Source: Pedobacter sp. MR2016-24
GTDB taxonomy: Bacteria > Bacteroidota > Bacteroidia > Sphingobacteriales > Sphingobacteriaceae
Reading direction: 5' to 3'
DNA: 64,000 nucleotides
Assembly: GCF_026239655.1 (NCBI RefSeq)
Contig: NZ_JAPIVO010000003.1
Coordinates: forward strand, 434,001-498,000
Position numbers and translations under genes: made by a program. Under the pieces are notes generated by a model, which saw nothing but the letters and a program-made list of their open reading frames with translations, had not been told where the DNA came from and did no database searches. This document shows positions 3,101 to 22,911 of the stretch, piece after piece; the stretch's first letter is position 1; every line of letters starts with the position of its first letter.

Positions 3101-3409
3101 ATACTTTCCTGTTGTACCGTCATCGCCACCAAGTGATTTTGTAGATTTCTTATGTAAGATTGCGATTAAATGCTTGGTTTCAAATGGCGCGCCATTGTGG
3201 CTGATAGTAATTTTATCATTTTCAAGCATAAAAGTTATATCTACACCTAATCCTTCATCAGTATCTTTTGCATTTTGCAGGAACTCCCATACCCACCTTG
3301 TTTTTTGTAATTCATCTCTATTTGTTAAACTATTTACATCGTGAATAATATCACGGGCTTCACTGTCAACTCGTAGTTTTTCGCGTTCTTCTTCAGCTTC
3401 TGTCATCAT
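194..3409 (-). CDS. sacsin/Hsp90-like ATPase with C-terminal nuclease-fold domain (DUF3883-like)
   Basis: A 1071-residue protein with an N-terminal GHKL (Hsp90/sacsin-type) ATP-binding domain. The N-box is WEFLQNAKDTD (Glu42, Asn46, Asp49), the middle box is reduced to HNGAP (71-75), and the glycine lid is GKYGTGF (101-107). A long central region shows no recognisable motif. The C-terminus (about 900-1000) reads GRTAEDAFKKVF, then Asp936, Glu949 and Lys951 in GKDFEI and IEIKN, a D-ExK arrangement like PD-(D/E)xK or DUF3883/NOV domains found beside restriction and defence genes. Such fusions are usually unstudied and often lie in defence islands. It is visibly AT-rich compared with the genes to its right, suggesting acquisition. 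The ATG at 3409 is followed directly by a second ATG. The 275 bases upstream (3410-3684) are AT-rich and hold no gene. Antiphage function is inference. Confidence 0.75.
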   Translation of the reverse strand: MMTEAEEEREKLRVDSEARDIIHDVNSLTNRDELQKTRWVWEFLQNAKDTDEGLGVDITFMLENDKITISHNGAPFETKHLIAILHKKSTKSLGGDDGTTGKYGTGFVTTHILSKVLNISGIHRNTVGERKFQIAVDRTSATLEEREALIKMKRSIKTTFDEINKIGDLPPEIFDSYTHSFVYELSESGRKYAEKGLDELEKNVVFTLLVNGGDIIRKKIKSIKIIRNSTSNLYRIEPGISKVSGLKYVSSGNNDGILYSETDNLIFGIPVAETMDGYLLKSLENRAVLFREFPLIGTENFNLPVFIQHNDFRPTEPRDGVVTKRETESEKEFTPDANRICMLEFRKEYLLFLDLLVNAKVDNLYYLTLSGLPIESKNYTGEDWYLKNIQKPIRDFLTTKELVQTVSKKLIRIGESKFPLLTEASGDSFYEVLIGLLPDQIPNNKCYSFLDKVINQEIENWPENISISLEQLLSNLPTLIITENGFPYESLKIVYQYLQSINSTLGETFPIYPNEKNELKVRGEVRLYPTIDDEMKFVSHRLGRDLDLEFLNRALGIDVPGIAPFDLENFYKSLNNEVISKIPVETASVEQILAILHINTLFKTDRAHKREEWLNLIKELLPNSFGDKKYIAIDYDNYQYPAELWTAKYFCYLVQNEITMTQFAKVYFEEDLKAAYYWLNRFLNYLNSSRDDIKLFLTKYKVVPTQNTKMVIQDGQEPSKWNGVFKAYEELLYKEDNPRYFDEDLKTIVQDHCNYNPKEFLIANEIQVADFRTTDVNFITKHIDKLFEDNEISAKVAVGGKFHDVFNTVNSWFDKHSDASSYLKTFAAKRDVLYVISLGEGFSTHIKALKDSGKSIEDISKLAEINLSVEHMQRLEAVANELGPEALISKAQEMIVIRNQRIRWQKIGRTAEDAFKKVFQNIDMEMELFNPDLGKDFEIILKTKGYSIEIKNVIRGKENVRMSILQGRTAVLEKEHYALCVLTRPDDETNIDEEYFTSNSNFVTDIGYQIGDKIKNWDSGLTSLTLSEDIKVNLDNKTESVYVNRPIWRDGKPFSEFVNALKTYFANDEIL

Positions 3410-3684: not shown

Positions 3685-4485
3685 CTATTCAGCAGGCTCC
3701 ACGACTTCCATCTGTAAGATATTTTTCTTCGGATAATTGAACGCAATCGAAGTAATGACCGGAATTACAAAAACAGCCACCGTGAAAATTGAAACAAACA
3801 AATGCGTCTGCTCTCCTTCTATCGCATGAGAAACCGCTGATTCAGGATAGAAATGAGTAAACAATGATGAAGTCAGTTTAATCCCCAATACTCCTATCAC
3901 CACAAACGCAACTGTCTCCAAAAAGCTAAACTTCTCCATCAGCTTCACGAAAGCCTGGGCTACAAAACGCATCGCAAGAATTCCTATAAATACCCCGATG
4001 TAAATCAGCCAGATGTTATCTGTAAATGCTACCGCAGCAAATACATTATCTATAGAAAAAGCCAAGTCCATCACTTCCACCAATGCAACGGTCGCCCAAA
4101 ATGTGCCTACCAATCCTACGGTTGACTTATATATCCAACTTTTACTTTTATCTACCTCCTCTTCTTCGCCTTCGGCATTTTTATTCTTCTTCAAAAAATA
4201 GTCTATAGCCAGGTAAAGCAAATACAATCCACCTAAAGGCTTCAACCACCATATTTGAACCAACCAAGCGGCAAGGAATAAACATATCCCACGAAACACA
4301 TAGGCTCCTATAATGCCATACTTCAAAGCTTTGTCTCTTTGATCTTTAGGCAGATCCATCACCATGGTCGCCAAAACCGCAGCGTTATCTACAGAAAGCA
4401 AGCTTTCTATCACCACCAGGTTCAACACTACGAGTAGTCCGGCCTGGATGTCATCTCCTAAAATAGTGTGTAAAAAATCCATCAT
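3685..4485 (-). CDS. terC: TerC family integral membrane protein
   Basis: A 266-residue polytopic protein with about seven hydrophobic segments and the paired acidic membrane motifs of the TerC family: ESLLSVDNAAVLA near the N-terminus and DLAFSIDNVFAAVA in the second half. The acidic and Asn residues in these repeats are thought to contribute to metal-ion (for example Mn2+) transport or binding. TerC proteins are linked to tellurite resistance and metal homeostasis. A charged loop (GEEEEVDKSK) separates the two halves. It is the last gene of the minus-strand run that begins near 16723, 39 bases after the small membrane protein, and gives that operon its ion-handling membrane component. A role in tellurite resistance itself is not shown. 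Confidence 0.9.
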   Translation of the reverse strand: MMDFLHTILGDDIQAGLLVVLNLVVIESLLSVDNAAVLATMVMDLPKDQRDKALKYGIIGAYVFRGICLFLAAWLVQIWWLKPLGGLYLLYLAIDYFLKKNKNAEGEEEEVDKSKSWIYKSTVGLVGTFWATVALVEVMDLAFSIDNVFAAVAFTDNIWLIYIGVFIGILAMRFVAQAFVKLMEKFSFLETVAFVVIGVLGIKLTSSLFTHFYPESAVSHAIEGEQTHLFVSIFTVAVFVIPVITSIAFNYPKKNILQMEVVEPAE

Positions 4486-4524
4486 ATCCTATAATTTTAA
4501 GGTGTTATTTATTGTCTGTTCAGG

Positions 4525-4737
4525 TTATATCTTTCTTAAAACCGTCCTCAATACGGAGAGCATAAAAAGGATAAAAAAGGCAATCAGTACCGGAGCAAAA
4601 ACTTCAAACCAGCCCATGCTGCCGGTAATGATTTTGATCAGAAAGAGGATCACACTGAACAGTATTCCCAGTGAGATTACAGCTTTTTTAAAACCTGTTT
4701 GATGAGCCGTAGTTTTCTTAGTTCTTCTCTTCGCCAC
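4525..4737 (-). CDS. small two-TM membrane protein in the Ter operon
   Basis: A 70-residue protein with a very basic start (MAKRRTKKTT) and two hydrophobic segments, about residues 20-37 and 46-64. The basic N-terminus predicts a cytosolic end by the positive-inside rule. It sits between the OmpA-like gene (21-base gap) and terC (39-base gap) on the same strand, so co-transcription is likely. I do not recognise the family; a helper or anchoring subunit of the Ter module is a guess from position. Confidence 0.7.
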   Translation of the reverse strand: MAKRRTKKTTAHQTGFKKAVISLGILFSVILFLIKIITGSMGWFEVFAPVLIAFFILFMLSVLRTVLRKI

Positions 4738-4758
4738 GATGCGTATTTCTTTAAAAAT

Positions 4759-5532
4759 TTATGGAAACGTAATTTCAACTCTTCTGTTCTTTTTTCTACC
4801 GGCATTGGTATCATTTAATGCGATTGGATTTTCTATTCCTTTCCCTGTTGCTACTACCCTATTTTGGGCAATACTTTTTGACACTAGGTATTGTTTAAAA
4901 GCATCGGCCCTCGCCTGCGAAATGGTTTGGTTAATAGCTAATGACCCATCGCTACTGGCATATCCATTTACCTGGATGGATGATGCTGGATTTTTACTCA
5001 GGTAAGACGTGATTTGTTTGATCAATGATTGATCTATGCGACTAAATGAAGCAGAACCCTGTGCAAAGGTTGCAGGAATTTTATTGTTTAATCGCTTAAT
5101 AACTGCAGCGGCATTGCTAGATACTGCTTCTGGTTGTGCGGGAGCTGTTTCAGCACTTTCGGTAACGGAGGTTGCTATTTTTGGCTCAGTGGTTGCAGAA
5201 GGACTTTCGGGTCTGGGTTTGGTACTGGCAATGCCAGCGCCTAGTTTGGCCTGTGCTTCAGCTATAGTAGAAGAAGTATCTTTCACAGCTAATTCCTGTG
5301 GTGCACCACCAGATTCACTGACCTTTGCTGAGCGGGTTGAATAATACCAGATTCCACCACCAATTATTAAGATACCTGTCAGCGCGACAATCCAGTTTTT
5401 TGAACCGGATGAATTTGCTGGTACTGTTGTTCCTGCAGCCTCTCCTTTGGTTAAATCAAATTTAGAATTGCCTGGTGTTTTGTTGGATGTTTCTTTAGCA
5501 GATCCATCGTTTTTGTTTAAATCGAATGCCAT
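4759..5532 (-). CDS. one-TM protein with C-terminal OmpA-like peptidoglycan-binding domain
   Basis: 257 residues. The N-terminus is cytosolic and disordered, with two FDLxK motifs (residues 3-7 and 25-29). One membrane segment (IVALTGILIIGGGIWYY, about 49-65) follows, then a Ser/Ala/Pro/Glu-rich linker and an OmpA-like domain (about 155-257) with VNGYASSDGS and the arginine-rich end AGRKKNRRVEI that binds peptidoglycan in this family. It would tie the inner membrane and the cytosolic Ter proteins to the cell wall. The FDLxK motifs resemble the N-terminal strand of the TerD protein encoded 13 bases upstream (FNLSKG), suggesting a shared docking element. It is in the middle of the Ter operon. 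Confident on architecture, not on exact role. Confidence 0.85.
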   Translation of the reverse strand: MAFDLNKNDGSAKETSNKTPGNSKFDLTKGEAAGTTVPANSSGSKNWIVALTGILIIGGGIWYYSTRSAKVSESGGAPQELAVKDTSSTIAEAQAKLGAGIASTKPRPESPSATTEPKIATSVTESAETAPAQPEAVSSNAAAVIKRLNNKIPATFAQGSASFSRIDQSLIKQITSYLSKNPASSIQVNGYASSDGSLAINQTISQARADAFKQYLVSKSIAQNRVVATGKGIENPIALNDTNAGRKKNRRVEITFP

Positions 5533-5545
5533 TATTTCTATCAGA

Positions 5546-6199
5546 TTAGGTATACATATCTACTAATGTTTGCAGGCTGCCGGTATGTGCTCTGCCCATA
5601 GCTTCGAATTCCCAGGTGTCACCAACGCGGAACAAACGACCGAATTCTACAGCATCTTCGTTAGTGTATTGGTCTCTCAGATCATAGCGCATAATTTCTT
5701 CACCATTGCTTTCATCAACGATTCGGATATAACAGTCATTCACTTGCCCAAAGTTCAGGTCTAGTGTTCTGCGGTCTTTTTTGTTATCATGAGGGTATTT
5801 ACAGATGGTGCAGCAGATAATGATCTGTTCAATCTTGTGACTAACTTTAGAGAGGTCGATAAACATATCTTCATCATCGTCGCCATCGCTCCTTTTCCCA
5901 TCGGGATCATCAATGGCGCCAAGGATTGCACCATCTTCGGTAAGGGGTCTGAATAAACCTTTCTCTATTTGATCTTCGATCTGGTTACCCATACGTAGCT
6001 GACCATAAAATGTAAAGTAGGAATCTGAGGGGATCTTGAAGTTACTGCCTATGGAGAAGGCGGACACGTCCAAATCAAACTCCGGTCCTCCGGGTTCATC
6101 GTTAGGATCCCATCCCATGCCTATTTTCACAACTGAAAGTCCGGGCGCTGCCTTGGACAGGGAGAACCGATCTCCCTTGCTTAAATTAAAACTGCTCAT
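5546..6199 (-). CDS. TerD family protein (longer paralogue)
   Basis: A 217-residue TerD-domain protein. It opens with FNLSKGDRFSLSK and KIGMGWDPND, then the family core FDLDVSAF. The acidic loop GDDDEDMFIDLSKV corresponds to the Ca2+-binding segment of TerD proteins, and the end reads WEFEAMGRAHTGSLQTLVDMY. TerD proteins bind calcium and act with TerB, TerC and other factors in stress-response complexes. This copy carries about 30 extra residues, including an acidic insert (DDPDGKRSDG) and a cysteine patch CCTICKYP. The next paralogue lies 7 bases upstream. Two divergent TerD copies in one operon suggest a heteromeric sensor rather than duplicate function. Confidence 0.92.
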   Translation of the reverse strand: MSSFNLSKGDRFSLSKAAPGLSVVKIGMGWDPNDEPGGPEFDLDVSAFSIGSNFKIPSDSYFTFYGQLRMGNQIEDQIEKGLFRPLTEDGAILGAIDDPDGKRSDGDDDEDMFIDLSKVSHKIEQIIICCTICKYPHDNKKDRRTLDLNFGQVNDCYIRIVDESNGEEIMRYDLRDQYTNEDAVEFGRLFRVGDTWEFEAMGRAHTGSLQTLVDMYT

Positions 6200-6206
6200 A
6201 TGTTTC

Positions 6207-6773
6207 TTATTGATATAATTCTATTAGTGTATATAATCCGCCTGAAAAAGCCTGACCCAGCGCTTCTACATTCCATTCGCCTCCATTTCTGGAAATAGCA
6301 GCAATGATCAGGGAGTCTTCAGTAGTAAAGTTTTCCTGCAGCTTGTACTGGCACAGCACGGAATTGTCTACCGCATTTCTGATATTGATATAAGAATTCT
6401 GCACATGACCGAAATGATGGCCTCTTTCTTCGCATTGATCTATGGTGACCGCAAAATAGAGGAACTCAACCCTGGAATCTATTTTACCGAGGTTGATATG
6501 GATCACTTCATCATCGCCCTCACCTTCGCCACCCCTGCTATCGCCGGGATAATGGGCAGAGCCATCCGGACTTGTTTCATTGTTATAGAAGATGAAGTAC
6601 TCATCTGCTACCAATTTACCATCTGCACCCAACATGAATAGGGACAGGTCCAGATCTACCGGATGGCCGTTTACGGTGGCAGGATCCCAACCTAAACCGG
6701 CTATAATTTTATTTAGCCCTGGTTGTTCTTTGGTAATTGATACTGGTTTTCTTTTTTCTACTTGTATAGCCAT
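6207..6773 (-). CDS. TerD family protein (standard length)
   Basis: A 188-residue TerD-domain protein: KIIAGLGWDPA, VDLDLSLFMLGADGK, the acidic Ca2+-site segment GEGDDEVIHINLGKI, then INIRNAVDN and WNVEALGQAFSGGLYTLIELY. The length fits the family. It is the upstream member of a two-TerD pair, 31 bases after the proline-tailed Hsp70-like gene. The acidic loop is closer to the canonical GDDE form than that of its partner, so this copy is the better candidate for ordinary calcium binding. Confidence 0.92.
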   Translation of the reverse strand: MAIQVEKRKPVSITKEQPGLNKIIAGLGWDPATVNGHPVDLDLSLFMLGADGKLVADEYFIFYNNETSPDGSAHYPGDSRGGEGEGDDEVIHINLGKIDSRVEFLYFAVTIDQCEERGHHFGHVQNSYINIRNAVDNSVLCQYKLQENFTTEDSLIIAAISRNGGEWNVEALGQAFSGGLYTLIELYQ

Positions 6774-6804
6774 AATATTTTTATATTAAATTGATCTCCG
6801 GTCA

Positions 6805-8109
6805 CTATCCTTTTTTAGGAGGGATAGGCGGAAGTTTTACTGGATTCACTTTTGTGGGAACAGGAGGTTTAACTTCTGGTAACCTGGGCGTAATGATTGG
6901 CGGCGGCGTAGCGGCACTGGCAACCTTTTTTGGTGGCAAAGGAGGTGGCAGTTTGGGTATTGGTAGTGCAGGTCTTGCAGGTGGTTGTGCAGGAGCTTGC
7001 GACTTAGCCTGAACCGGCGCCTTTGCGGGTGCTGCGTAGTTAGCGGCAGAGATTCCTGCGAAAACGGCTTTCATGGTGTCGCTAACATCTGCTGATTGCA
7101 CTTCTTTTACATGCTGGTATTTCTTAAGGAGTTTACCGGAGAAATAGGAAGTACTGATGGCCGCTGTGCCTAAAAGAATAACTACATTTTCTGTAACAAT
7201 ACCGGCAGATTTTAACAGGTCATCTATCGCAGCATAAATCATGCTGTCGTTAGAGTAATATTGCAGCCTGTCATTGAGGTTATTGGCGTTGACCTTAAAC
7301 CAGTATGCATTACCATCAGACAGCTCTGCATCTCCTTTGATAATAGGGCTTGTACTTTCGAGCAGACTGGCACAAAATGGGAGCAAAACAGCAATCTCTG
7401 TATCCTTATCGATTGATAAATAGGAATTCTGGAGAATGATGTATTCTACAATCATATCGGCCAGAATCCTTACTCTCGGGTCTGCACCCTGACCTTCGAG
7501 TTTGAAAGTCCCTATCGCTTCAGCGTTGATGTCTTTGTACAATTTTGCATAGAGCACATCATCAACTCCGCTGAGTAACAAAACCGCTTTTTGTGAAGGT
7601 AAAGTTCCTTTACCAGCCAGCACGCTAAAGAGCGTCTTGTTATACAATACACGGTCTAAATTGAAATACCCGGCTTCCTGAAACAAGTGTTCTATGAGCG
7701 ATTTTTCCTGATCTTCTATATCTGTATCAAACAAAAAACGTAATGGGAAATGCTGCCGGTAGGATTCTATAGACTCCGCTTTATATAAAACCGTGTTCAG
7801 GAAATGTGATAGGTATTGTTCTATGCCATAGTAGAACAGTTGCTTTACCGGTTTTTTGTTCCCGTAAATGGTGAAATGTTTGCTTGGGTCTTTGATGATT
7901 TCAAAGTAATTCCCGTAGCTATTAGGATCATGTCTGTTAAAGCGTTCTCTTGCTGCACTACCAAAAATAAAGTCGTTACCGTTCACATAGAAGTACAGGG
8001 GAATCTCATTTGATTCCTTGATACTTAATGGCGCATAGGGATTACTTTCTGATTGATACCAGAAAGTAACCATACGTTTGGATATTTTTGCTAATACACA
8101 GAATCTCAT
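6805..8109 (-). CDS. degenerate Hsp70/actin-fold protein with proline-rich tail
   Basis: 434 residues. Residues 1-345 follow the layout of an actin/Hsp70-type domain: a strand-rich start, a long helix FYYGIEQYLSHFLNTVL, then LRFLFDTDIEDQEKSLIEHLF leading to AVLLLSGVDDVLYAKLY and finally VVILLGTAAISTSYF. The glycine-rich phosphate motifs of active Hsp70 (DLGTT, DLGGGT) are absent, so ATP hydrolysis is doubtful and a pseudo-ATPase is more likely. Residues from about 350 to the end are Pro/Ala/Lys-rich (PPPLPPKK, PPPIITP, LPPIPPKKG), a flexible arm that could bind partner domains. It lies 5 bases after the 1302-residue Hsp70-like gene, which suggests the two proteins act together. The actin fold is inferred from motif order only. 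Confidence 0.65.
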   Translation of the reverse strand: MRFCVLAKISKRMVTFWYQSESNPYAPLSIKESNEIPLYFYVNGNDFIFGSAARERFNRHDPNSYGNYFEIIKDPSKHFTIYGNKKPVKQLFYYGIEQYLSHFLNTVLYKAESIESYRQHFPLRFLFDTDIEDQEKSLIEHLFQEAGYFNLDRVLYNKTLFSVLAGKGTLPSQKAVLLLSGVDDVLYAKLYKDINAEAIGTFKLEGQGADPRVRILADMIVEYIILQNSYLSIDKDTEIAVLLPFCASLLESTSPIIKGDAELSDGNAYWFKVNANNLNDRLQYYSNDSMIYAAIDDLLKSAGIVTENVVILLGTAAISTSYFSGKLLKKYQHVKEVQSADVSDTMKAVFAGISAANYAAPAKAPVQAKSQAPAQPPARPALPIPKLPPPLPPKKVASAATPPPIITPRLPEVKPPVPTKVNPVKLPPIPPKKG

Positions 8110-8114
8110 GGCGT

Positions 8115-11100
8115 TTATTGTTTTTGGATTCCTTTAAGCAGATGTTTTTCAAAGAATTTCATCCCTTCTAAAATGATGATTGGCGCTACATAGTCGAACT
8201 CCTTCTGATCGTCGTGCTTGCGCTTTTGTGCTTTGATAAAACCGGGTTCTCCTTTGATATAATTTTCGATATTCATATCCTGGAAGCCGGCCATAAAATC
8301 TGCATTATTCATTTTTAAGCCGAACATACTGGAGGATACTTTATAGAACAGATCTGCGAAGTCCATAAATCTCGGACAATGGGCTTTGCCATCTGGCGGC
8401 AGACAAATAAAATGGTTACCAATGTGTTCCAACATCTCTGGAGTGATCGAATTGGTGGATTCCAGGTATTTGAACTCTCCTGCAGGCGTAACCACACAGA
8501 AATTATCTTCCCCGAGTATCTCTATAGCCTGTTTATTGGTAGGCACAAGGATACTGGTGATATGGGTAGGAATTGCGAGACCTTTGGATACCTCATACTT
8601 GACATCGGCATTGTCTGTTCCGCGCTGTGAGTTGATATCGATAATTTTTAAAGGACTGGTATGAATTGGCGTAATGGTCTGTCTTGCGACAGCTTCTCCG
8701 CCCATTCCCCTGATAAACATCTGGGTATAATAATCGTCGGCTGCTGCCGGGTTAACGGCAGTGAACCAATCAAAAATTCTGGATCCCTTTCCTGCAAAAG
8801 CAATCTTAATTTTAGGTGGAATTGCTTTAACTGCTGCCGGGGCATCTTCAGATTTTACGATTTCGGTTCTTAGTTTATAGGCCAGCTGCCCTGCGTAGAA
8901 CATGATCAGTCCTGTCACATACAAGTTAATGCTCATCATCTCCTTACACTCTGCAGCAATCAGCAGGTAAAAGGTTTCAAAGTCTGAGGCCTCTAACCTG
9001 TCTACTACCTGTTCAAAATAATAGGGAGCAGTGTTTTCAGAAAACTTATTGGTACCCTTATTTAATCCCTGGATGGAGATGTTTTTCTTTTCGCACATCC
9101 TTAACAGGACGTTCTTAAAGTTGGGCGAATATTTAGTGGCCTGTGCAATTCTTTCTGCTGCAAAACGGATAGAGTTCTGTTTGATCATTGCTTTGCCACC
9201 TTCCATCTGGCATAAGGCGGTGATATCAGTAGTACTGCCACCAATGTCAAAACACAATACCAGCTCGCCAGGATTAATGGAATAGCCGCCATTTGGTCGA
9301 ACTAAATAATTCGCTACCGCACAGGCTTCAGAAAGCGATTCTTCATTACTTAGTTTTTTGAAGTCGAATTTCACCGGACCGGTTTCGGTAGCGATATTGA
9401 CCGCAGCTACAGCTTTGTTTGTCGTCTCACTGCCCCAGCCACCCGCATTAGCAGGAGCTTTAGTTTCACTTCCCCATCCGGTAGTGGTTTCGGCTGTTCC
9501 CCAGCCTGAAGCAGACACAGGTGCTGCCGCAGCGCCACTGCCCCAACTGGTTTCAGCTGCAGGCGTACTCCACGCACTTCCACCAGAAGTATCACCCAGA
9601 TCTGAAAGATCAGACGGAGGATAAGTTTTTAATTTGACGTTACCCACAATCGGAGAAATCTCTTTCAGTGAATCCCAGATTGCCCGGTATTCACTTAGCA
9701 ATTCCTTACCCATTGAAGAGGGATAAGACCATTTTAGCGTGTGCGGCTCATGGTTTTCAACAAATAGCTGTGCATAAACGTGCAGTAACAGTGAGCTCAG
9801 ATAAGCAGTTTTATAACTCTTATCAATAGGTTGGGTAGACCATTTCATATTGTATACTAATTCTGCCCTCCCTACTCTATTGTAGCTCAATATGTATCGG
9901 TTGTCTTCTGCAGTTTCTATCGGCAGGTTCTTCTCAAAGCAGGGAAAACCACCTTTAATAGCTTGCGCCATTAATGAATCATTCTGTATGTTATTTTCAT
10001 TAATTACCCTTCTGGAATCGTGAATGGTAAGCACAGATTTAATGGCATTGGTCAGAATTTCATCGTTCTGAAAAAAGAAAATCTCATCCTCCACAGCCGG
10101 ACGCTCGTCGTTATTTTTCGCATCGGTAGATAAAAGGGAAACTCTTTTATTGGTCAGTTTCAGGCTTTCACACACCTCATTTTTATGATCGGAAAAATAA
10201 GCGATAGACGAGTTGGTACTGCCAAAGTCGACCCCCAGATAGGCTTTGGATAACGATTTCGGAGAATTGAGCATATTGACGGGCAGTGATTGTGTATTTC
10301 CTGATCCGTCATACCGTATAATTCCAAAACCACAGTCAATACCTGCATGGGCAAATTTTACGCCTTTAAAAGGCCTGTTGCTTTCATAGATTTCGTATTT
10401 GTATTTGTTATCCGCAACCGCATTATTTGAGGTAATATGTAACTGTGCTTTTAAATCCCCGTACTTTTCAGGAATCACCGCTGCTCTTCCATTGCTGGCC
10501 AGATACAAGGGCACTCCATTTTCATCTAAAACGATCCGGAAGAAGTCGTCATCAATATTCCCGATAAATGGTGTCGCCTGAAACTTCGCATCATTATGCG
10601 GAATCTCTGAATACAGGAAATAACGGTTCCATTGTTTGGAAATGAAATTGGGCCACATCAATATGTCTTTGCCTACAATCGAATCGGAGGTTACTTTGTA
10701 GATTACCTCTTTAATAATCTCATTTCCGGTTTCTGTATACAGCTTTAGGTTAACCGTTAAACGTTCGCCATTTTTATCGTTTGGATCGTAGATTGCAGTG
10801 ATCCGAGATTTTACATTCGAAGCGTCTGAAATACCTACCAGCGCATCCAGTGTAGCGCCGAAAACATTTAAGGCCAGGGGAGTTAGTGGTAAGGTAAAGT
10901 AAGCATAGTTATTGGGCTGACCTTTGGTTTCTGCAGCGAGTAACAGGATAGGTTTAGCTTTCAAATAGTTTTTGGTTTCCATACCTTCTCTGCCAAAATC
11001 AATCTGTGCGATTTCGGTAGTATCTGGCAGGAGCAAATCTTTGGGATCAAAACTGATCCTTCCGTTTAACGGGTCATTATAGATGATCCCTTCCGAACCG

Positions 11101-12023
11101 TATAATTCGGTAGAATAGTTAAACAGGATGCTGAAAGGGTAATTGAATAAAGAACCCACTTCCGGGGGCGTCTGGTTATCTAATTTGGGATAACCCTTCT
11201 TTTGCTGATAAACCACCATCTCATCCAGCCATCCCTGAAGAGAGGAAGATAGATTACCATATTCTGGTCTGATCAGTTCTTCCAAACCTGCATAATTAGC
11301 CCTGAATTTTTCAATATGATGGAGGATATGTTTGGCGTAACCATAGAGTGTAAAAAGCTCCTGCGGATTTAATTCTGATTGTAAGGGATCTATAAACTTA
11401 CCGTTCTGTACGTTGACGAATGGCAGTTTATCTTTAACATTATAGGCTACAGAGGTGAACAGAAAGCTGTCTGGCGAAGTTCCGCCTACCACACTCCCTT
11501 TAAAAGAGATCACATCAATGAAAGGGATTTTATCTGCATTGTTGGCCAGCGACTGATCGCACCACAAAGGCTGGCGCTCAAAGAGCATATTTCCAAAGGC
11601 ACCTACGGGTTCATATATATTCGCTGTATTGATGAGCGGATTTCCATCGGTATAGGCTAAGTGCACCCGGCTCACCTCTATATCTTTATAGTTTAAAGCG
11701 ATACAGCTGATAAAACCTTTCCATTCACTAATCAGCGACTTATAAAAGAGCATCAAACCAGCTGCTTCCGCATCTTTATCCTGGATGTTATCCAGCGCTC
11801 CTTTAAACAAGTTAGCACGAGCAAATACAGATGGGATACCAGATACAATGGTTCCTATGTTGACAGAAGAGTTGCCTTCTTTGTCAACCGCTATTTCGGG
11901 TATTAAAATGTTCTTGGTAAAAACTTCTAATTGAGGGATCTTGTCCCAGGCAAATTCAACTCCATTAGGTTCAGTCTTAGGATGAACTTTTATCGCCAGT
12001 GCTTTTATTCTTTTATCTGACAT
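8115..12023 (-). CDS. giant Hsp70-like ATPase with novel N-terminal half
   Basis: 1302 residues. The first 590 or so form a large region with no family I recognise. An Hsp70/actin ATPase follows: phosphate-1 motif YLGVDFGSTNSSIAYF (about 595), phosphate-2 motif CFDIGGSTTDITAL (about 922) and adenosine-type motif FAGKGSRIFDWF (about 1075). These look intact, so ATP binding is likely. Between the two phosphate motifs sits a low-complexity insert (about 805-875) with repeated Trp-Gly units (SGWGTAE, TGWGSE, GGWGSE). The ATG comes one base after the stop of the tubulin-like gene, so the two are translationally linked. The neighbour downstream is a degenerate relative of the ATPase. The probable role is a remodelling ATPase of the Ter-linked complex; its substrate is unknown. 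Confidence 0.85.
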   Translation of the reverse strand: MSDKRIKALAIKVHPKTEPNGVEFAWDKIPQLEVFTKNILIPEIAVDKEGNSSVNIGTIVSGIPSVFARANLFKGALDNIQDKDAEAAGLMLFYKSLISEWKGFISCIALNYKDIEVSRVHLAYTDGNPLINTANIYEPVGAFGNMLFERQPLWCDQSLANNADKIPFIDVISFKGSVVGGTSPDSFLFTSVAYNVKDKLPFVNVQNGKFIDPLQSELNPQELFTLYGYAKHILHHIEKFRANYAGLEELIRPEYGNLSSSLQGWLDEMVVYQQKKGYPKLDNQTPPEVGSLFNYPFSILFNYSTELYGSEGIIYNDPLNGRISFDPKDLLLPDTTEIAQIDFGREGMETKNYLKAKPILLLAAETKGQPNNYAYFTLPLTPLALNVFGATLDALVGISDASNVKSRITAIYDPNDKNGERLTVNLKLYTETGNEIIKEVIYKVTSDSIVGKDILMWPNFISKQWNRYFLYSEIPHNDAKFQATPFIGNIDDDFFRIVLDENGVPLYLASNGRAAVIPEKYGDLKAQLHITSNNAVADNKYKYEIYESNRPFKGVKFAHAGIDCGFGIIRYDGSGNTQSLPVNMLNSPKSLSKAYLGVDFGSTNSSIAYFSDHKNEVCESLKLTNKRVSLLSTDAKNNDERPAVEDEIFFFQNDEILTNAIKSVLTIHDSRRVINENNIQNDSLMAQAIKGGFPCFEKNLPIETAEDNRYILSYNRVGRAELVYNMKWSTQPIDKSYKTAYLSSLLLHVYAQLFVENHEPHTLKWSYPSSMGKELLSEYRAIWDSLKEISPIVGNVKLKTYPPSDLSDLGDTSGGSAWSTPAAETSWGSGAAAAPVSASGWGTAETTTGWGSETKAPANAGGWGSETTNKAVAAVNIATETGPVKFDFKKLSNEESLSEACAVANYLVRPNGGYSINPGELVLCFDIGGSTTDITALCQMEGGKAMIKQNSIRFAAERIAQATKYSPNFKNVLLRMCEKKNISIQGLNKGTNKFSENTAPYYFEQVVDRLEASDFETFYLLIAAECKEMMSINLYVTGLIMFYAGQLAYKLRTEIVKSEDAPAAVKAIPPKIKIAFAGKGSRIFDWFTAVNPAAADDYYTQMFIRGMGGEAVARQTITPIHTSPLKIIDINSQRGTDNADVKYEVSKGLAIPTHITSILVPTNKQAIEILGEDNFCVVTPAGEFKYLESTNSITPEMLEHIGNHFICLPPDGKAHCPRFMDFADLFYKVSSSMFGLKMNNADFMAGFQDMNIENYIKGEPGFIKAQKRKHDDQKEFDYVAPIIILEGMKFFEKHLLKGIQKQ

Positions 12024-12024
12024 G

Positions 12025-13671
12025 TTAGTTTATATCGAAGTTTTGTGAAATAGTCAATGCGTTGAAAATGTGAGCGAGGAATTTCTCTTTGGTAGTGTTT
12101 ACCTTTTGCTCATCCTTCGGACCAGTGTTAATGAGTTTCGCCACAAAGGTGTCGTAACGGTCGCCAAATATTCCGCCCTTAGACCAGTGGTGTTTGTCGT
12201 CGAGGAACATTGTTCCTACGTCTAGTTTTTTCAGCTCTGCCTGGTTATCTGGAAAAGCCCGGCTATCAAACAGGAATTTGCCCGGCGCCACAGAGTTCCG
12301 CACCTGATACAGCCAGCCCGGGATAAACCTGGCATCTTTAAAACTATAGGCGAACAGCTTGAAGTACTCATTGATATCCTTACATTCCGTGTCTGTAATA
12401 GTGCTGTATTGATTCAGCTTTTGGTTTTCACACTGTCTGATAAAGCCTTTGATACCGGCGTCATCGAACGCAGCACCATTCTTGGTTAAGGAGATATGCG
12501 CAAGGGAAAAGAGCGCTCCCAGTTTGTTGACAAATATTTCACCCGCTTTATTGTCTTTACCAATAAAATCATCAAAAGAGAAATTGAACGAATTGTCTTT
12601 AAATTCAACTGCTTTGTACAGATAATCTGCCTTTGCACTGTCGAAACCAGTAGAACGCGTAAAGAAGTCGTAGGCCGCACAAGCACAAAGCAGCTCCGTA
12701 ATATGGCATGCGTTCTTTTGCTCACTGCCACCTGTTATGGTTTGGTTGGAAGTATTATTTCCATCTATCTTTTTACTTTCTATCGGCCAGCCGATATGAT
12801 ACAATAACTTATAACACTTTTGTACGGTTGGATCACTTTGATAAAACTGCAGGGCGGCCTGACTATTCAAAGGAAAGAAGGAGGAGTCGGCAATTACGCT
12901 ATTGGCTTTGGTCGACTTCTGTTGCGCATCTGGTTTATTGAAGGTAAAATACTCCGTCAATAAAGTAGAACCGAATTTAGCCTTAGAAAAATCGATGCTC
13001 GCATTTCCATTGGAACGGATCTTCACAAAATCCTGCAATGCTTTAGGAATTACCGGAATCGAAGATGCCCCAGTACCTCCGAAAACAGAACCAAAAATAA
13101 ACACCCTTGCATTTGCACCCGCTTTTTCAAGCTTGCCCATGAAAGCATCCAGTTCACGTTCCTGAGATTGCACTGCAGATCCTTTCAAAATATTTCTCGC
13201 TGCTTCGACTATTCCATGATACATCAGCATAGAACCCAGATGTGTCTGGGCACGGTAACCATGGTCCAAAGCAAATTCCTGTACAGAACTGGTATCCAGG
13301 AATAAATCAGACACCAGTTTATTGGCCTTCTGTTGCTCCGGTGTACCCGTGCTGATCTTCGTGATATTTTTATAGTTTTCTCTTCCGGGACCTGAATAGT
13401 TTGTCCAGAAACGATGCAGGTTAAGCTTAGCAGAGAAGAAGGTATTTGCATTAGGCGTTCCACCTTCCGCAGTTGTACCCGATGTTTTGATCCGGTTGTA
13501 TAAGTTAATCAGCTCTTCTACCCTACCCTTATTGCCGTTATTCTGGTCAGTGTCAAGCGTTAACACCTCTATTTCCTGGTTATCAAACATGCCTATGCCA
13601 CATAAGTGTACAAAAGATTCAAGGCAGCGCATTCCAGTACCGCCTATGGCGATGACAAATAATTTATCCAT
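12025..13671 (-). CDS. tubulin/FtsZ-like GTPase (Tubulin_2 / FtsZ-like type)
   Basis: 548 residues. The N-terminus LFVIAIGGTGMRCLESF is the glycine-rich nucleotide loop of tubulin-like proteins. EVLTLDTDQNNGNKG follows as the second nucleotide contact. Near residue 195 the sequence FIFGSVFGGTGASSIP matches the tubulin signature loop in the shortened GGTG form seen in the non-division FtsZ-like families. It is not FtsZ: it is longer, divergent, and lacks the FtsZ C-terminal tail. FtsZ-like families of this kind have been proposed to remodel membranes. It is placed directly before the giant Hsp70-like ATPase (1-base gap) in the Ter operon. Polymerisation is inference; the GTP-binding fold is well supported by the motifs. 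Confidence 0.8.
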   Translation of the reverse strand: MDKLFVIAIGGTGMRCLESFVHLCGIGMFDNQEIEVLTLDTDQNNGNKGRVEELINLYNRIKTSGTTAEGGTPNANTFFSAKLNLHRFWTNYSGPGRENYKNITKISTGTPEQQKANKLVSDLFLDTSSVQEFALDHGYRAQTHLGSMLMYHGIVEAARNILKGSAVQSQERELDAFMGKLEKAGANARVFIFGSVFGGTGASSIPVIPKALQDFVKIRSNGNASIDFSKAKFGSTLLTEYFTFNKPDAQQKSTKANSVIADSSFFPLNSQAALQFYQSDPTVQKCYKLLYHIGWPIESKKIDGNNTSNQTITGGSEQKNACHITELLCACAAYDFFTRSTGFDSAKADYLYKAVEFKDNSFNFSFDDFIGKDNKAGEIFVNKLGALFSLAHISLTKNGAAFDDAGIKGFIRQCENQKLNQYSTITDTECKDINEYFKLFAYSFKDARFIPGWLYQVRNSVAPGKFLFDSRAFPDNQAELKKLDVGTMFLDDKHHWSKGGIFGDRYDTFVAKLINTGPKDEQKVNTTKEKFLAHIFNALTISQNFDIN

Positions 13672-13689
13672 TAAAATGTATTTAGGAAA

Positions 13690-14028
13690 TTAAAACCAGT
13701 GACCGATTTTGCCGTTTGCGAATACTTTACTTAGTATAAAGCCCAGCAGGATGTACAAGACGAAGCCTATGGCCGTTCCCATACTCAATGCACTTACATA
13801 ATTGTTGACTACCATAATATTTGCATCCGGCTTGAAGATGAAGTAACCTAGCAAGAAAGCCAGGATTGGATTTAAGATAGCCAGGATCCAGAACCAGGTC
13901 TTCCGCGATTGCGGATCTTTAGGATTGCTGCCTCCTTCAAACTTGATCGCATTAGCAATGATTGCTGATAAAATTAGAAAGATAAAGGCGGTGATGATGG
14001 TGATGATATAAGCTGATGTAGATTGCAT
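13690..14028 (-). CDS. three-TM membrane protein in the Ter operon
   Basis: 112 residues with three hydrophobic stretches: about 8-26 (IITIITAFIFLILSAIIAN), 45-65 (WFWILAILNPILAFLLGYFIF) and 82-104 (MGTAIGFVLYILLGFILSKVF). A short polar loop (GGSNPKDPQSRKT) lies between the first two. It is 18 bases before the tubulin-like gene and 21 bases after the lipoprotein gene on the same strand. The family is not recognised. Its position suggests it recruits the cytosolic GTPase/ATPase pair to the inner membrane. Confidence 0.75.
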   Translation of the reverse strand: MQSTSAYIITIITAFIFLILSAIIANAIKFEGGSNPKDPQSRKTWFWILAILNPILAFLLGYFIFKPDANIMVVNNYVSALSMGTAIGFVLYILLGFILSKVFANGKIGHWF

Positions 14029-14049
14029 GTTCTATTTTTTTGAGGTTAA

Positions 14050-15597
14050 TTATTGTTGTGTTTTGATGTAGTATGAATAGATTACTTTATTGGCTGGTGT
14101 AAGTTCCTGTAAGGTATTTTTAACAGACTCATACAAAGCTGTATTTGGTATTTTCTTAGCATTTAGCCATTGGAATTTTGATAATTTCGGATTCGTCAGG
14201 TTAGGGATGGCTGTATTCAATACGATATCGGTTTTGACCAATCCATTAGAATTTTGGATGTTTTTGATACTGAACTTAGGGTCAAAGGAAACTCCGAATT
14301 CTGCATTCTTATTGTCAGTATTTTTAGTGTTTGTGAATAACGTCTTGTTCAGCACAAAAACTTCATTCAATGCGCTTCCCGCTGCTGGTTGATATACCCA
14401 TTGCTCCTTCAACTTGCCATCAGTATTGTAACATGAGAGTGCGATTGGATCCGTTTCATTGTCAGCGAACTTAGCTTCCCCATTACTTCCTTTAGTTAAT
14501 TTAGGCTGGTGTTTTTTGGCCTCGGCGGATTTAGCAAAGTTTTCAAAATCGGTGGTCACATCCGCAACTTTTACATCAAAATCACCATAGGTATAGCTGT
14601 CATTATTACTCAGGTCGATATATAACTTTCTAAAAAAATCAGTAAACTGTCCCTGAGCAGCAAACGTAGTATGCAACTGATCTATCGTATTCCAGTCTAA
14701 TCCCAAAGGATAGAATTCAAAATGATTTCCGTCTTTCAATCCGTTCACATATCCTTCTTTTAAATCCAGCACATTTTTAGCCGCATCAGATTTACCGGAT
14801 GGATCATAAAATACTCCTCCTGATTTTTCGCCAGCGTATCCGGTGCGCAGTTTGTAAGATTTATTAGACAAATCAAAACGCGTTGTTAACGGTGCCAGCT
14901 GAGCCTCCAGTTTGGTGATCATGCTCGAACTATTGGGATTGCCACAGTTGAAAATGGTGAAATACAAGTGTTTCTGCACACCGGCCTCATTATAATCAGC
15001 AATAAAAAAATGTATGGTATTTCCTTTTGCCAGCCATTTAGAGAAGGGTATTTTCAAAAATGCGGTATTGGTTACTTCAATGTTCTTTTGCCACTCTTCA
15101 AAATCAGTGATGAGGAGTGCATCGTTATTACCTTCGACAATTTTTTCTACGGTACCCTGGATCGGTGCCCATATGTCTGCATACTGAGCAGGATTACTAA
15201 CCTGCTGACCTAGTTCCGTAGTGTTCGAAATATTTAAAGGGGTTATTTTATTCGCACCCAGTTTGTACACTTCAAATTTTTCAGCTAAAACTGTATTAAA
15301 GCAGTTGGTCATCATCCCCTTAATTGCCGGATCTGAGAAAGCTTTGTTAATACCTGAAGAGAAATCGATATACAAAGCAGGATTACCTGTTTTCGAATTT
15401 GCACTATTCGGCAAGATGGTATTGTTGTAGGCTTCAATGCGTTTACCCAATTCCTGGTCGTATGGATTGAATTTTACATCTTCGAAGGGTGTTTCTGACA
15501 CACCACTTGGTTTACTACCAGAACATCCTGTTAGGGCAACCATCAGCATAAGCACGCCAGATACACTGATCGTCTTCAGCTCATTTTTCATTTTCAT
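14050..15597 (-). CDS. vWA-like lipoprotein of the Ter operon
   Basis: 515 residues with a lipoprotein signal: basic MKMKNELK, a hydrophobic stretch, and lipobox ALTGC with Cys25 as the lipidated residue. After a short linker the sequence ALYIDFSSGI (Asp78-x-Ser80) followed by LLITDFEEW resembles the metal-site strands of a von Willebrand A domain, though a full MIDAS motif is not evident. The C-terminal half is strand-rich and unassigned. It is the first clearly envelope-targeted gene of the operon, 46 bases after the nuclease-fold gene. Ter systems elsewhere commonly include vWA proteins (TerY type), which supports this reading. The vWA assignment is tentative. Confidence 0.75.
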   Translation of the reverse strand: MKMKNELKTISVSGVLMLMVALTGCSGSKPSGVSETPFEDVKFNPYDQELGKRIEAYNNTILPNSANSKTGNPALYIDFSSGINKAFSDPAIKGMMTNCFNTVLAEKFEVYKLGANKITPLNISNTTELGQQVSNPAQYADIWAPIQGTVEKIVEGNNDALLITDFEEWQKNIEVTNTAFLKIPFSKWLAKGNTIHFFIADYNEAGVQKHLYFTIFNCGNPNSSSMITKLEAQLAPLTTRFDLSNKSYKLRTGYAGEKSGGVFYDPSGKSDAAKNVLDLKEGYVNGLKDGNHFEFYPLGLDWNTIDQLHTTFAAQGQFTDFFRKLYIDLSNNDSYTYGDFDVKVADVTTDFENFAKSAEAKKHQPKLTKGSNGEAKFADNETDPIALSCYNTDGKLKEQWVYQPAAGSALNEVFVLNKTLFTNTKNTDNKNAEFGVSFDPKFSIKNIQNSNGLVKTDIVLNTAIPNLTNPKLSKFQWLNAKKIPNTALYESVKNTLQELTPANKVIYSYYIKTQQ

Positions 15598-15643
15598 ATG
15601 CTATTTCTTATGTATTTTAATAGAGAAATTTGGGGGACATTAT

Positions 15644-16723
15644 TTATTTCACCTTTGTTACTTCCAATCTGGAAATGACTTCTTTTAAAATCGCCGCATG
15701 TTTATATAAATCGTCGAGGGAATCCAGTTCATATTTGATCTCCTTTTTATTCTCGTCGAGGATTGCCAGATATTTTTTGGTGTTCAGGTAAAGTCTGCAG
15801 ATCGTCTTACGGTTATTGTCATCCAGCAGGATAGCGAAATAAGAAAGGGCATCCCTGTAAGTGATTCTTTTCGAATCTGTAGTCTCTCTCAGAATGGATT
15901 TCACTATAAAAAATCCTTCAATCTCTTCTTCAGTAGTAATGATGCCAGATTCTTGATCAGATGTCACTACAGTTTCTGCAATCTTCGTTGCTTCGGCAGC
16001 ATCTTTTTCTTTTTCCTGATTTAAGGCAGATTTAAGACGTTCGTTAATGGCATCACTGATCAGTTGATTGAAAGAGCGTTTGATAATTGGTGCAAATTGC
16101 TCTTTGACTTTAGCAGTTATGACTTTTGGAAAAACCTGTTTTGTGAAGAATGTGATAAAACCTTCTGATGGATCTGCAATCTCCTTATGCAACAGCGCCT
16201 TTAGCTCATTCAGGTATTTCAGTTCACTCGCCGTGTTAGTGATATTTTCTACATCAAAATACGACTTATGAAATTTCTTCAATTCTAATAGTTCTGCATC
16301 TTTAATTTCGGTTAACTTGAATTCAAAGAAAGGAGTGTTGTCCATTTTGTTCTTCTCCATAAGATCAGTATAGAAACGATAAACCAAGCCATTGGTCAGC
16401 AGACCAAACTTCGCCTTAGTGGTATGAAAATATCTGAAAAGTTGTGAATTATGAGGGTCGAGATTCTCCAGGTGGTGTTTGCATTCAATCAATATGGTAG
16501 GCTCGCCATCTTTCATAATGGCATAATCTACCTTCTCTCCTTTCTTAATTCCTAAATCGGCAATGAATTCCGGATTGACTTCAAATGGGTTGAATACATC
16601 GTAACCCATAATCTGAATAAAAGGCATTACCAAAGCATTTTTTGTAGCTTCTTCTGTTTGTATTTGAGGCAACATCTTCTCTACACGAGATCCCAGTTGT
16701 GCTATCTGATCTTTAAAATCCAT
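15644..16723 (-). CDS. type I restriction HsdR N-terminal-like nuclease-fold protein
   Basis: 359 residues. The N-terminal 150 residues match the HsdR_N pattern: VMPFIQIMGYDVFNPFEV, then a PD-(D/E)xK core with Asp66 in KVDYAIM and Glu80-x-Lys82 in LIECKHH, and FGLLTNGLVYRFYTDL. The C-terminal half is Lys/Glu-rich helical sequence followed by a small domain ending in a helix. There is no helicase domain, methyltransferase or specificity subunit nearby, so this is not a restriction system. It starts the compact minus-strand run that leads to terC (46-base gap to the lipoprotein gene). Ter-type operons have been described together with DNA-processing enzymes, which fits. Cleavage activity is not shown. 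Confidence 0.8.
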   Translation of the reverse strand: MDFKDQIAQLGSRVEKMLPQIQTEEATKNALVMPFIQIMGYDVFNPFEVNPEFIADLGIKKGEKVDYAIMKDGEPTILIECKHHLENLDPHNSQLFRYFHTTKAKFGLLTNGLVYRFYTDLMEKNKMDNTPFFEFKLTEIKDAELLELKKFHKSYFDVENITNTASELKYLNELKALLHKEIADPSEGFITFFTKQVFPKVITAKVKEQFAPIIKRSFNQLISDAINERLKSALNQEKEKDAAEATKIAETVVTSDQESGIITTEEEIEGFFIVKSILRETTDSKRITYRDALSYFAILLDDNNRKTICRLYLNTKKYLAILDENKKEIKYELDSLDDLYKHAAILKEVISRLEVTKVK

Positions 16724-16777: not shown

Positions 16778-17002
16778 CTATTTGCTTTTTTTGCCTTCCC
16801 AGGCACAAAGACTCATCTTTTTATTCTTTGCAGTCTGAGCTGAAATTTTGACTATTTTAAACTGGCAATTGCGCAGGCCTTTGCAGGTAGGCGACAAATG
16901 GTATTTGTCAGTTTTGTGGTTATTACAGATGTAAACCTCGCCAGGTCCTTTAGAGATGGCGGCATTGAAGAAAATGCTGAGAGATAGTAAAATTGTTATC
17001 AT
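16778..17002 (-). CDS. small secreted Cys/His protein
   Basis: 74 residues. An N-terminal signal (ITILLSLSIFFNAAISKG) is followed by VYICNNHKTDKYHLSPTCKGLRNC and ends in MSLCAWEGKK. The pattern of one Cys, a His, a Cys pair and a final LCAWE is a recurrent small exported family in Bacteroidota, probably binding a metal or disulfide-linked; its function is unknown. It precedes the nuclease-fold gene by 54 bases on the same strand and may share its transcript. Confidence 0.7.
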   Translation of the reverse strand: MITILLSLSIFFNAAISKGPGEVYICNNHKTDKYHLSPTCKGLRNCQFKIVKISAQTAKNKKMSLCAWEGKKSK

Positions 17003-19971: not shown

Positions 19972-20965
19972 AGGTGTAGTGTTTAAGCGTTGGTTCGTCG
20001 AGGTGAAAATAAATGATTTTTAACGTATCTGATGGTAAATATTGCTGAATGTAGCTGGCAGCAGCAAACAACTGGTCAGCAGACAGTCGCTCCAGCCTGA
20101 TCTCATCCCCGCGCAATAAACCAAATGCGGGCAGATCTTTTTGCAAGGTGTAAAGGTTGTTGCCCCCTGGTTTAAAAGTTTGGTGATCTGTAAAGTTCCC
20201 GGAGCCCAGTCTCTTGGCGATCCCTGCATATTGTTTGTGCCTGAATACCACCGCCCAGCTGAATAAAGGCAGCCCCACATCGAGTGGTACAGGATAATTA
20301 CCTAAGTTCTTACCTGCATATTTTTCCAGTTCTTCTTGCTCCAGTATTGAATTCTGATCTCCATATTTGCGCAGGTTACCCATATTGTAACACATCAGCA
20401 TCGCGCGGTCAACCGGTGGTATACCATTTCTTGCCTGATATTTGAGCTGATGCAGGCGGAGCGTAGCAGACAGGATCTTGTTTTTCAGCTTTGGGTTGGA
20501 TTTGATCCGGCGCAGCAGGTAGAAATAATTATCCCGGGTACTTCGCGTCCAGTCGCAATCGATCTGCAGTTCCTGATAAGATAGCTTCCCGGAAGGTTTG
20601 ATCCGGCCTTCTACGTAATAAACAATCTTAGCAGCGAGGTCATCCAATTGCCGCGGATTTTGGTTTTTAAGCACATCATTAACAATAAATACAACAGGAA
20701 TGAGCTGGATGGAATCAGGCAATGCTGATTTGAAGCTGACCGGCGATACAGGCTGAGGCCCATTGTCGCCATAATCCACATCCATTAACCGCACATAAAG
20801 TTCCTTACTATGCAGGGCATTCACGTATTTACTTTCCAGCGGATTGTTTTCATAGACTGTTTTCCAGTAATAAAAGCTGGTGCTGACTACCCTGTCTCTG
20901 CGACAGGAAACCAGGAAAAACAGGATCAATCCTGTGAGCAATAGGATCAGTTTCGGCATCTTCAT
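19934..20965 (-). CDS. lipoprotein with DUF3142-like (TIM-barrel-type) domain
   Basis: 343 residues with a lipoprotein signal ending FFLVSC (Cys21). The body contains LQIDCDWTRSTRDNYFYLLRRI and IDCDW/YLPSDTLKIIYFHLDE patterns like DUF3142 proteins, which are predicted barrel-fold glycan-active or glycan-binding proteins. The overlap of 38 bases with the following gene implies coupled translation of an envelope protein pair. The second in-frame ATG at 20959 is an alternative start. Substrate unknown. Confidence 0.7.
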   Translation of the reverse strand: MKMPKLILLLTGLILFFLVSCRRDRVVSTSFYYWKTVYENNPLESKYVNALHSKELYVRLMDVDYGDNGPQPVSPVSFKSALPDSIQLIPVVFIVNDVLKNQNPRQLDDLAAKIVYYVEGRIKPSGKLSYQELQIDCDWTRSTRDNYFYLLRRIKSNPKLKNKILSATLRLHQLKYQARNGIPPVDRAMLMCYNMGNLRKYGDQNSILEQEELEKYAGKNLGNYPVPLDVGLPLFSWAVVFRHKQYAGIAKRLGSGNFTDHQTFKPGGNNLYTLQKDLPAFGLLRGDEIRLERLSADQLFAAASYIQQYLPSDTLKIIYFHLDEPTLKHYTYEDLAKTAAVFR

Positions 20966-20995
20966 ACAGTTCAGTGCGGCATATGAGTGATAAAT

Positions 20996-21028
20996 TAAAT
21001 CTATGCAGAACCATACCTGATTAACAAA
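20996..21028 (-). promoter_or_regulatory. Bacteroidota-type promoter for the 20965-17359 pair
   Basis: On the minus strand TTTG (21028-21025) is followed after 21 bases by TAGATTTA (21003-20996), a 7 of 8 match to the TAnnTTTG -7 element. It lies about 30 bases before the ATG at 20965. Spacing and placement fit the sigma-ABfr consensus. Confidence 0.45.
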
Positions 21029-22901: not shown

Positions 22902-22911
22902 TCAGTATATT

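Follow-up and report, generated by a model that had tools for sequence, protein, structure and literature searches.

Several described gene systems share parts with an operon that we analysed in Pedobacter sp. MR2016-24, within positions 434,001 to 498,000 of contig NZ_JAPIVO010000003.1 (the whole 64,000-nucleotide stretch is referred to here as the window). As far as we know, it is still poorly understood what TerD proteins and divergent tubulin-like operons do. The FtsZl1 operons (Makarova & Koonin 2010, PMC2875224) combine, in the portion of that account available, a tubulin-like protein with vWA, OmpA-family and transmembrane proteins; they are patchily distributed and predicted to form a membrane complex. 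The neighbourhoods of the GAP1-N2 GTPase-centric conflict systems (Kaur et al. 2020, PMC7159879) contain tubulin, HSP70, vWA and transmembrane components; in the sections consulted, tubulin and HSP70 are separate themes, the tubulin theme is restricted to Firmicutes and Actinobacteria, and the main text mentions TerD a single time, for a different system. Excerpts on Ter systems (PMC7824862) present TerD sensors, TerC and the proposal that structures formed under the membrane prevent entry. A parallel to the sister type described below is given in PMC12204202 (in part), where periplasmic vWA proteins are encoded next to TolQ-type motor genes.

The window operon sets TerD and OmpA-domain proteins beside a conserved core with predicted tubulin-like and actin/Hsp70-like members, and in other genomes the same core carries a GTPase/GAP1 pair in their place. 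Our preferred reading, held tentatively and at a little under an even chance, is that these genes specify an envelope-spanning NTPase machine of modular build, whose cassettes can be exchanged.

Operon layout, core conservation and cassette exchange

Eleven consecutive minus-strand open reading frames (ORFs) in the ORF list of the window run from position 16723 down to 3685. The intergenic gaps, counted upward from TerC, are 39, 21, 13, 7, 31, 5, 1, 18, 21 and 46 bp, bearing out the compact eleven-gene cluster of the original prediction, which had put them at about 1-50 bases. The order of transcription is HsdR_N, LIPO, TM, TUB, BIG, HSP, TerD, TerD, OmpA, TM70 and TerC. Five of these genes make up the core: LIPO (14050-15597), a lipoprotein of 515 amino acids (aa) with a probable vWA domain at residues ~68-240; TM (13690-14028), a small membrane protein of 112 aa with three helices predicted by hydropathy; TUB (12025-13671), a putative divergent tubulin/FtsZ-like GTPase of 548 aa; BIG (8115-12023), 1302 aa, the C-terminal half of which is predicted to be ATPase-like; and HSP (6805-8109), a predicted pseudo-Hsp70 of 434 aa. 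The cassette that follows consists of two TerD genes, the first transcribed encoding 188 aa (6207-6773) and the second 217 aa (5546-6199), and a gene for an OmpA-domain protein of 257 aa (4759-5532). Three further genes are classed as accessory: TM70 (4525-4737), a small membrane protein of 70 aa by hydropathy; TerC (3685-4485), 266 aa; and, at the operon head, the PD-(D/E)XK-like HsdR_N protein of 359 aa (15644-16723). A small ORF of 74 aa (16778-17002, minus strand) also lies at the operon head and may be a further, upstream member of the operon; small relatives of this ORF are found near several related operons.

A search of 84,980 species genomes yielded 163 relatives, and the best 80 of these 163 were kept for locus counts. 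By their record titles the 80 loci belong to Bacteroidota, the exception being L105, a metagenome-assembled genome labelled Saccharibacteria; a Bacteroidales genome has exactly the same TUB, and L105 is therefore probably a mislabelled or contaminated record. Locus L078 is from [Flexibacter] sp. and groups with Chitinophaga on the tree. All five core genes are present in 67 of the 80 loci, and in each of these 67 complete loci the order is LIPO-TM-TUB-BIG-HSP, with TM between LIPO and TUB. The clustering is more than chance, since the order recurs in distant genomes. The genes from the lipoprotein through OmpA are kept together in distant Bacteroidota, and the predicted unit stood to that extent. 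The distribution of the core is patchy, with relatives across Bacteroidota. TUB matches were found in 13 of 59 relatives searched and in 13 of 395 genomes of the phylum, the Pedobacter genome itself being included in both; within the genus, the window type occurs in 9 of 36 genomes (again including its own), a distant sister type in 2 of 36 and both in none. Cultured carriers suited to genetics exist among Pedobacter, Chitinophaga and Flavobacterium strains.

What follows HSP differs between loci: TerD genes in 50 of the 80, a GTPase/GAP1-N2 pair in 15, other genes in 5 and the end of the contig or locus in 10. TerD and GTPase/GAP1 occur together in none of them. TerD lies downstream of HSP in all 50 TerD-type loci; at least two TerD genes are present in 45 of these and OmpA in 47. 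The weakest profile call was at E 7e-37 for TerD (n=95) and E 1.7e-4 for OmpA (n=48). For the GTPase type, parts of three loci were scanned with Pfam and the remaining loci were assigned by our own profiles grown from L115. L115 scores 31.3 bits for DO-GTPase2 (cut-off 27) and 26.5 bits for GAP1-N2 (cut-off 24), L094 scores 33.9 bits for DO-GTPase2 (cut-off 27), and L120 scores 23.2 bits for GAP1-N2 and 23.3 bits for GAP1-M, both just below cut-offs of 24. On a TUB tree the TerD and GTPase states require four changes, and the GTPase-type loci were monophyletic in 0 of 200 bootstrap trees. This tree left out ten cut loci and L093 (no TUB ORF over 430 aa), took in ten sister loci together with L050 and L056, and contains long branches that were flagged by the tree tool; a first quick TUB tree agreed with it in outline. 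The GTPase type as a single clade was rejected (p-AU 3.5e-6).

The TerD/OmpA and GTPase/GAP1 cassettes have been interchanged repeatedly on one core, and this exchange suggests that both do the same job for it. The statement is testable: TerD-OmpA would serve the core in the way that the GTPase-GAP1 pair serves it in other loci. TM70 was called in 15 of the 50 TerD-type loci, TerC is present in 13 and the HsdR_N gene in 7, so that the latter two look like accessories; 7 of the 37 TerD-type loci without TerC end within 900 bp past the last TerD or OmpA gene. TerC and the nuclease as core parts were dropped. The original prediction had taken the whole set as a single complete machine, a claim that is not supported by these counts or by the replacement of TerD/OmpA in the 15 GTPase-type loci; it had itself doubted whether the nuclease-fold head gene belongs. 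The conserved unit runs from the lipoprotein to OmpA and does not take in the whole eleven-gene set.

Predicted folds of the core, cassette and accessory proteins

Pfam scans covered ten of the eleven operon proteins, that is, all except the 70-aa TM70. The identities expected for TerC, TerD, OmpA and the nuclease-fold (HsdR_N) protein were confirmed above Pfam cut-offs. The 188-aa TerD protein scores 201.9 bits for Pfam TerD and matches PDB entries 3ibz (E 3.8e-46) and 2kxt (E 1e-41), and the 217-aa protein scores 157.4 bits and matches 2kxt (E 2.7e-30). Pfam OmpA gives 61.3 bits, and a probable transmembrane helix was located by eye near residues 46-66, ahead of the OmpA domain; the hydropathy threshold flagged no helix in this protein. 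TerC scores 187 bits for Pfam TerC and 257 bits for TIGR03716, which places it in the YkoY subfamily, and the HsdR_N protein scores 58.7 bits for HSDR_N (cut-off 25.1). The genome has three further TerD genes outside the operon (C19:416608-417752 and C17:333370-334023). In L102 a cation P-type ATPase (19606-21657) directly follows OmpA, and L105, L108 and L109 have an ORF of similar length in that position (684, 684 and 682 aa as shown, to the locus end).

Among the core proteins, a PDB sequence search with the TUB, BIG, HSP and LIPO profiles gave no match. TUB scores 22.1 bits for Tubulin (cut-off 33) and 15.5 bits for Tubulin_2 (cut-off 27), both below cut-off, and each family matches 10 of 10 aligned TUB relatives at E<=0.1. 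The loop FGGTGASS is invariant in ten sequences. These features point to TUB being a divergent tubulin/FtsZ-like putative GTPase, and the tubulin-like fold of the original prediction stands on that sub-cut-off basis. A genome search with Tubulin_2 at E<=0.001 gave no match in the Pedobacter genome itself and matched 1 of 61 genomes.

Full-length BIG of the window has no Pfam match at E<=0.1. Its C-terminal half contains three motifs, DFGSTN, D(I/V)GGSTTD and GKG(S/A)R, that are near-invariant in 46 diverse aligned sequences and that we take to be the phosphate-1, phosphate-2 and adenosine signatures of the actin/Hsp70 superfamily. At E<=1, 36 BIG C-terminal halves gave Pfam matches to MutL (12), HSP70 (9), Hydantoinase_A (9), MreB (3) and FtsA (3), presumably all members of that one superfamily, the best being MreB at E 4.1e-4. 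PDE12-like_N, a family outside it, was matched by 6 of the 36 and is the sole Pfam match of the window's own C-terminal half (E 0.057). A profile of the C-terminal half gave weak matches in the PDB, all of Hsp70 type or MreB (best E 0.023). We therefore predict that this half belongs to the actin/Hsp70 superfamily and is ATPase-like. The N-terminal half was assigned to no family.

HSP likewise has no Pfam match at E<=0.1. An AlphaFold2 (AF2) model built from 43 sequences has a pLDDT of 90, and its first ~355 residues match the nucleotide-binding domains of Hsp70/DnaK (best Foldseek E 5.8e-16, TM-scores about 0.5-0.6). A comparison with DnaK by hhalign is suggestive (E 0.04 over 326 columns). 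The phosphate-binding and adenosine motifs are lost, as judged by eye; a conserved GxDPR stretch is kept and a proline-rich tail follows the fold. The model thus predicts a pseudo-Hsp70, which has the nucleotide-binding fold of Hsp70 but not the catalytic motifs. In L080 (15544-18249) a single gene joins an HSP homologue to a genuine Hsp70 (Pfam E 2.3e-87), and this fusion gene is followed by genes for a 731-aa protein without a Pfam match and for a MORN-repeat protein. Of the two Hsp70-like proteins originally proposed, the 434-aa one has the predicted fold and has lost the catalytic motifs, and the 1302-aa one has the motifs and lacks a significant profile match for the window protein itself.

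LIPO has a lipobox-like LTGC, identified by eye, and in Pfam at E<=0.1 it has a stray match to TetR_C_18 (E 0.026) only. Its AF2 model (42 sequences, pLDDT 87) gave no Foldseek row at E<=0.001; in VIA, vWA-type domains make up most of the leading rows, covering residues ~68-235 with Z up to 6.8. Residues D78, S80, G82, T164 and D165 are invariant or nearly so in the 42 sequences. The MIDAS-type residues DxSxG and TD are conserved, the last Ser of DxSxS being Gly. The model and these residues make a vWA domain probable, and the vWA-like fold foreseen for the operon is retained at that strength.

Genomic context, proposed mechanism and alternatives

A distant sister type, with a TUB about 30% identical, keeps lipoprotein-TM-TUB-BIG and has no HSP call. 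Direct BLAST between the TUB proteins of the two types reaches E 4.8e-22, and the TUB of sister locus L029 passes Tubulin_2 (28.9 bits, cut-off 27). The hhalign comparisons of LIPO and TM with their sister counterparts are suggestive (E 2.5e-4 and E 1.9e-4, respectively, with two controls at 0.28 and 0.71). The 100 percent hhalign results for TUB and BIG against their counterparts were left unused, because the profiles share members. A MotA/ZorA-like gene follows the core in 8 of 12 sister loci, a count from which L050 (OmpA and ZorA calls) was excluded as more divergent. PADLOC identified ZorB (E 1.3e-13) and ZorA (E 1.2e-5) in L029 and ZorB (E 7.7e-11) in L048. Adjoining the sister ZorA/ZorB-type operon of L028 (8915-17658) are genes for SNase, DUF4236/SH3 and caspase-domain proteins. 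Inspection by eye adds MoxR-like AAA proteins and proteins of vWA-like type, a setting that resembles the MoxR-vWA conflict systems described by Kaur et al.

Some copies are associated with mobile elements. A sister-type TUB/BIG operon (L171:9995-20740) lies on a plasmid, typed as mobilizable, of the cyanobacterium Picosynechococcus sp. PCC 7003; the plasmid search returned six records, none covering 80% of the query. The viral-contig search returned one locus, L170 (2935-17380), in which a relaxase and a tyrosine integrase stand just before LIPO, followed by TM, TUB, BIG, an 880-aa protein, two TerD-like proteins and an OmpA-like piece. It is a divergent copy of the system, its TerD likeness being weak (hhalign E 0.001, no Pfam match), and because of the relaxase and integrase we read it as a mobilisable element and not as a virus. 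Upstream of LIPO there are an integrase and a relaxase in L093 and a relaxase only in L108 and L105. In the window itself, a TmtA-like gene (194-3409, minus strand, 1071 aa; PADLOC E 8.4e-213) follows TerC on the same strand after 275 bp; we take TmtA to be Tiamat. No relative of this gene was found at the other loci searched.

Rfam gave no match in window positions 1-22000. At 22233-24594 (minus strand) there are genes for a response regulator (222 aa) and a TPR lipoprotein-type histidine kinase (560 aa), their domains assigned by eye. Five of the 80 loci (L058, L059, L060, L071 and L076) also have this pair upstream of the operon. It is possible that this pair regulates the operon.

We infer the following working model. 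The vWA domain of LIPO would sense an envelope event such as damage, a disturbed metal balance or the entry of a phage or mobile element, and TM would relay the signal. Under the inner membrane, TUB and BIG, through their putative activities, would assemble in a nucleotide-dependent manner on an HSP scaffold. In the TerD variant the two TerD proteins may serve as an adaptor or switch that depends on Ca2+, and the OmpA protein would tie the assembly to peptidoglycan by putative binding; TerC, when present, would adjust metal ions. The system would probably reinforce or remodel the envelope locally, under stress or in conflict with phages and mobile elements. A role in envelope stress or in such conflict appears the most likely; the patchy distribution, the mobile copies, the adjacent TmtA-like gene and the published framing of related systems speak for conflict.

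Several results weigh against the modular-machine reading. The placement of BIG in the actin/Hsp70 superfamily rests on motifs and weak matches; the C-terminal half of the window protein has no Pfam match within that superfamily at E<=1, and BIG gave no hhalign match with DnaK, the DnaK profile being a narrow one (genus and class only). The vWA call rests on Z<=6.8, a range that VIA calls common. The ZorA-like protein of L048 has no PADLOC ZorA match, and 4 of the 12 sister loci are without a ZorA call (L046, L054, L055 and the cut L047). No promoter-type match of Bacteroidota was found before the operon and a scan for sigma-70 promoters and terminators was at chance level, so that a single transcript stays putative. 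Finally, at E<=1e-15 there are eight defence family names in the flanks (77 non-redundant proteins from the window and 18 Pedobacter loci) and eight in a control set (102 proteins from 20 places, 19 of which yielded proteins). The corresponding models number 20 (7 being PDC-S01) and 16 (6 being PDC-S01); these counts are of names and models, not of distinct proteins. Enrichment in a defence island is not claimed, the flanks being no richer in defence family names than the control.

A more specific version, which we consider possible and would place clearly behind the general one, is a two-cytoskeleton machine. Here TUB, BIG and the HSP scaffold would co-assemble beneath the membrane and the vWA lipoprotein would gate them from outside; the cassettes would be a putatively Ca2+-binding TerD pair with a peptidoglycan anchor, the DO-GTPase/GAP1 pair or, without the pseudo-Hsp70, a MotA/ZorA-ZorB motor. 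If true, Ter, GAP1-GTPase and Zorya-like conflict systems would be alternative outputs of one envelope-guarding core. Somewhat less probable is a housekeeping cytoskeleton that remodels membranes or forms vesicles without a special link to conflict, as proposed for FtsZl1 operons (PMC2875224), which from the available part of that text have the same kinds of part (tubulin-like, vWA, OmpA and transmembrane proteins); the presence in only 9 of 36 genomes of the genus, the differing flanks (not formally counted) and the copies beside relaxase and integrase genes fit an accessory system better. We regard as unlikely a Ter-type operon for metal or oxidative stress; here Ca/Mn or tellurite-like stress would be dealt with by TerD and TerC, for which the tubulin- and actin-like proteins would provide no more than a sub-membrane scaffold. 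The YkoY-type TerC, the two TerD genes and the P-type ATPase of L102 speak for it; yet TerC is absent from 37 of the 50 TerD-type loci (7 of these cut short), TerD is lacking in 15 of the 80 loci that share the core, and no TerB or TelA was found by Pfam among the ten operon proteins scanned. That TerD/OmpA stand next to the core through mere operon packing of independent stress genes is improbable: other TerD genes do lie away from the operon, but TerD is downstream of HSP in every TerD-type locus and the GTPase/GAP1 pair, where present, takes that position and does not occur alongside TerD.

Comparison with described systems

The original prediction could name no operon of exactly this composition. 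In kind there are precedents in the available portions of two accounts: operons with tubulin-like, vWA and OmpA proteins in Makarova & Koonin 2010 (PMC2875224), and operons in which GTPase and GAP1-N2 accompany tubulin or HSP70 in Kaur et al. 2020 (PMC7159879). The FtsZl1 operons share with the window a divergent tubulin-like protein together with vWA (here by predicted fold and so weaker), OmpA and transmembrane proteins. The portion of the FtsZl1 text at hand (PMC2875224) names no TerD, actin-like giant or pseudo-Hsp70, and it describes a GTPase and kinases, neither of which is present in the window operon. According to the same portion, most FtsZl1 proteins have a long coiled coil and a helical C-terminus, the type protein being 1051 aa; at 548 aa the window TUB appears too short for this layout. 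We infer that FtsZl1 corresponds to the Pfam Tubulin_2 family, the cut-off of which the window TUB misses by the scores given above.

The feature of a tubulin and/or HSP70-family component, as in GAP1-N2 systems, is present in the window operon. The DO-GTPase and GAP1-N2 proteins of those systems were not found by Pfam among its ten scanned proteins; they are carried by Bacteroidota relatives of its core, namely the 15 loci with DO-GTPase2 and GAP1-N2. With Ter systems the operon shares TerD and TerC. In place of TerB and TelA it has the tubulin-like, actin-like and pseudo-Hsp70 core, and neither these two nor the biosynthetic PRTase/HAD partners were detected by Pfam at E<=0.1 in the same ten proteins. 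The likeness to Zorya ZorAB lies in the sister systems, which share the core and carry MotA/ZorA-like and ZorB-like genes. Among the ten window proteins no MotA/ZorA-like protein was found; an OmpA protein is present, which matches the PADLOC ZorB models just within residues 168-256 (best E 1.6e-9).

The literature searched, with most subscription papers and the main Ter comparative-genomics survey outside its scope, held no TerD with a tubulin-like/actin-like core, and we provisionally regard this association as new. The operon is filed outside FtsZl1, GAP1-N2, Ter and Zorya, because a defining feature of each was looked for and not found here. It is nevertheless a variant of the described tubulin-like/vWA/OmpA and tubulin/GTPase/GAP1 operons, and as such it joins three literatures: those on Ter, on tubulin/GAP1 GTPase systems and on Zorya-type motors.

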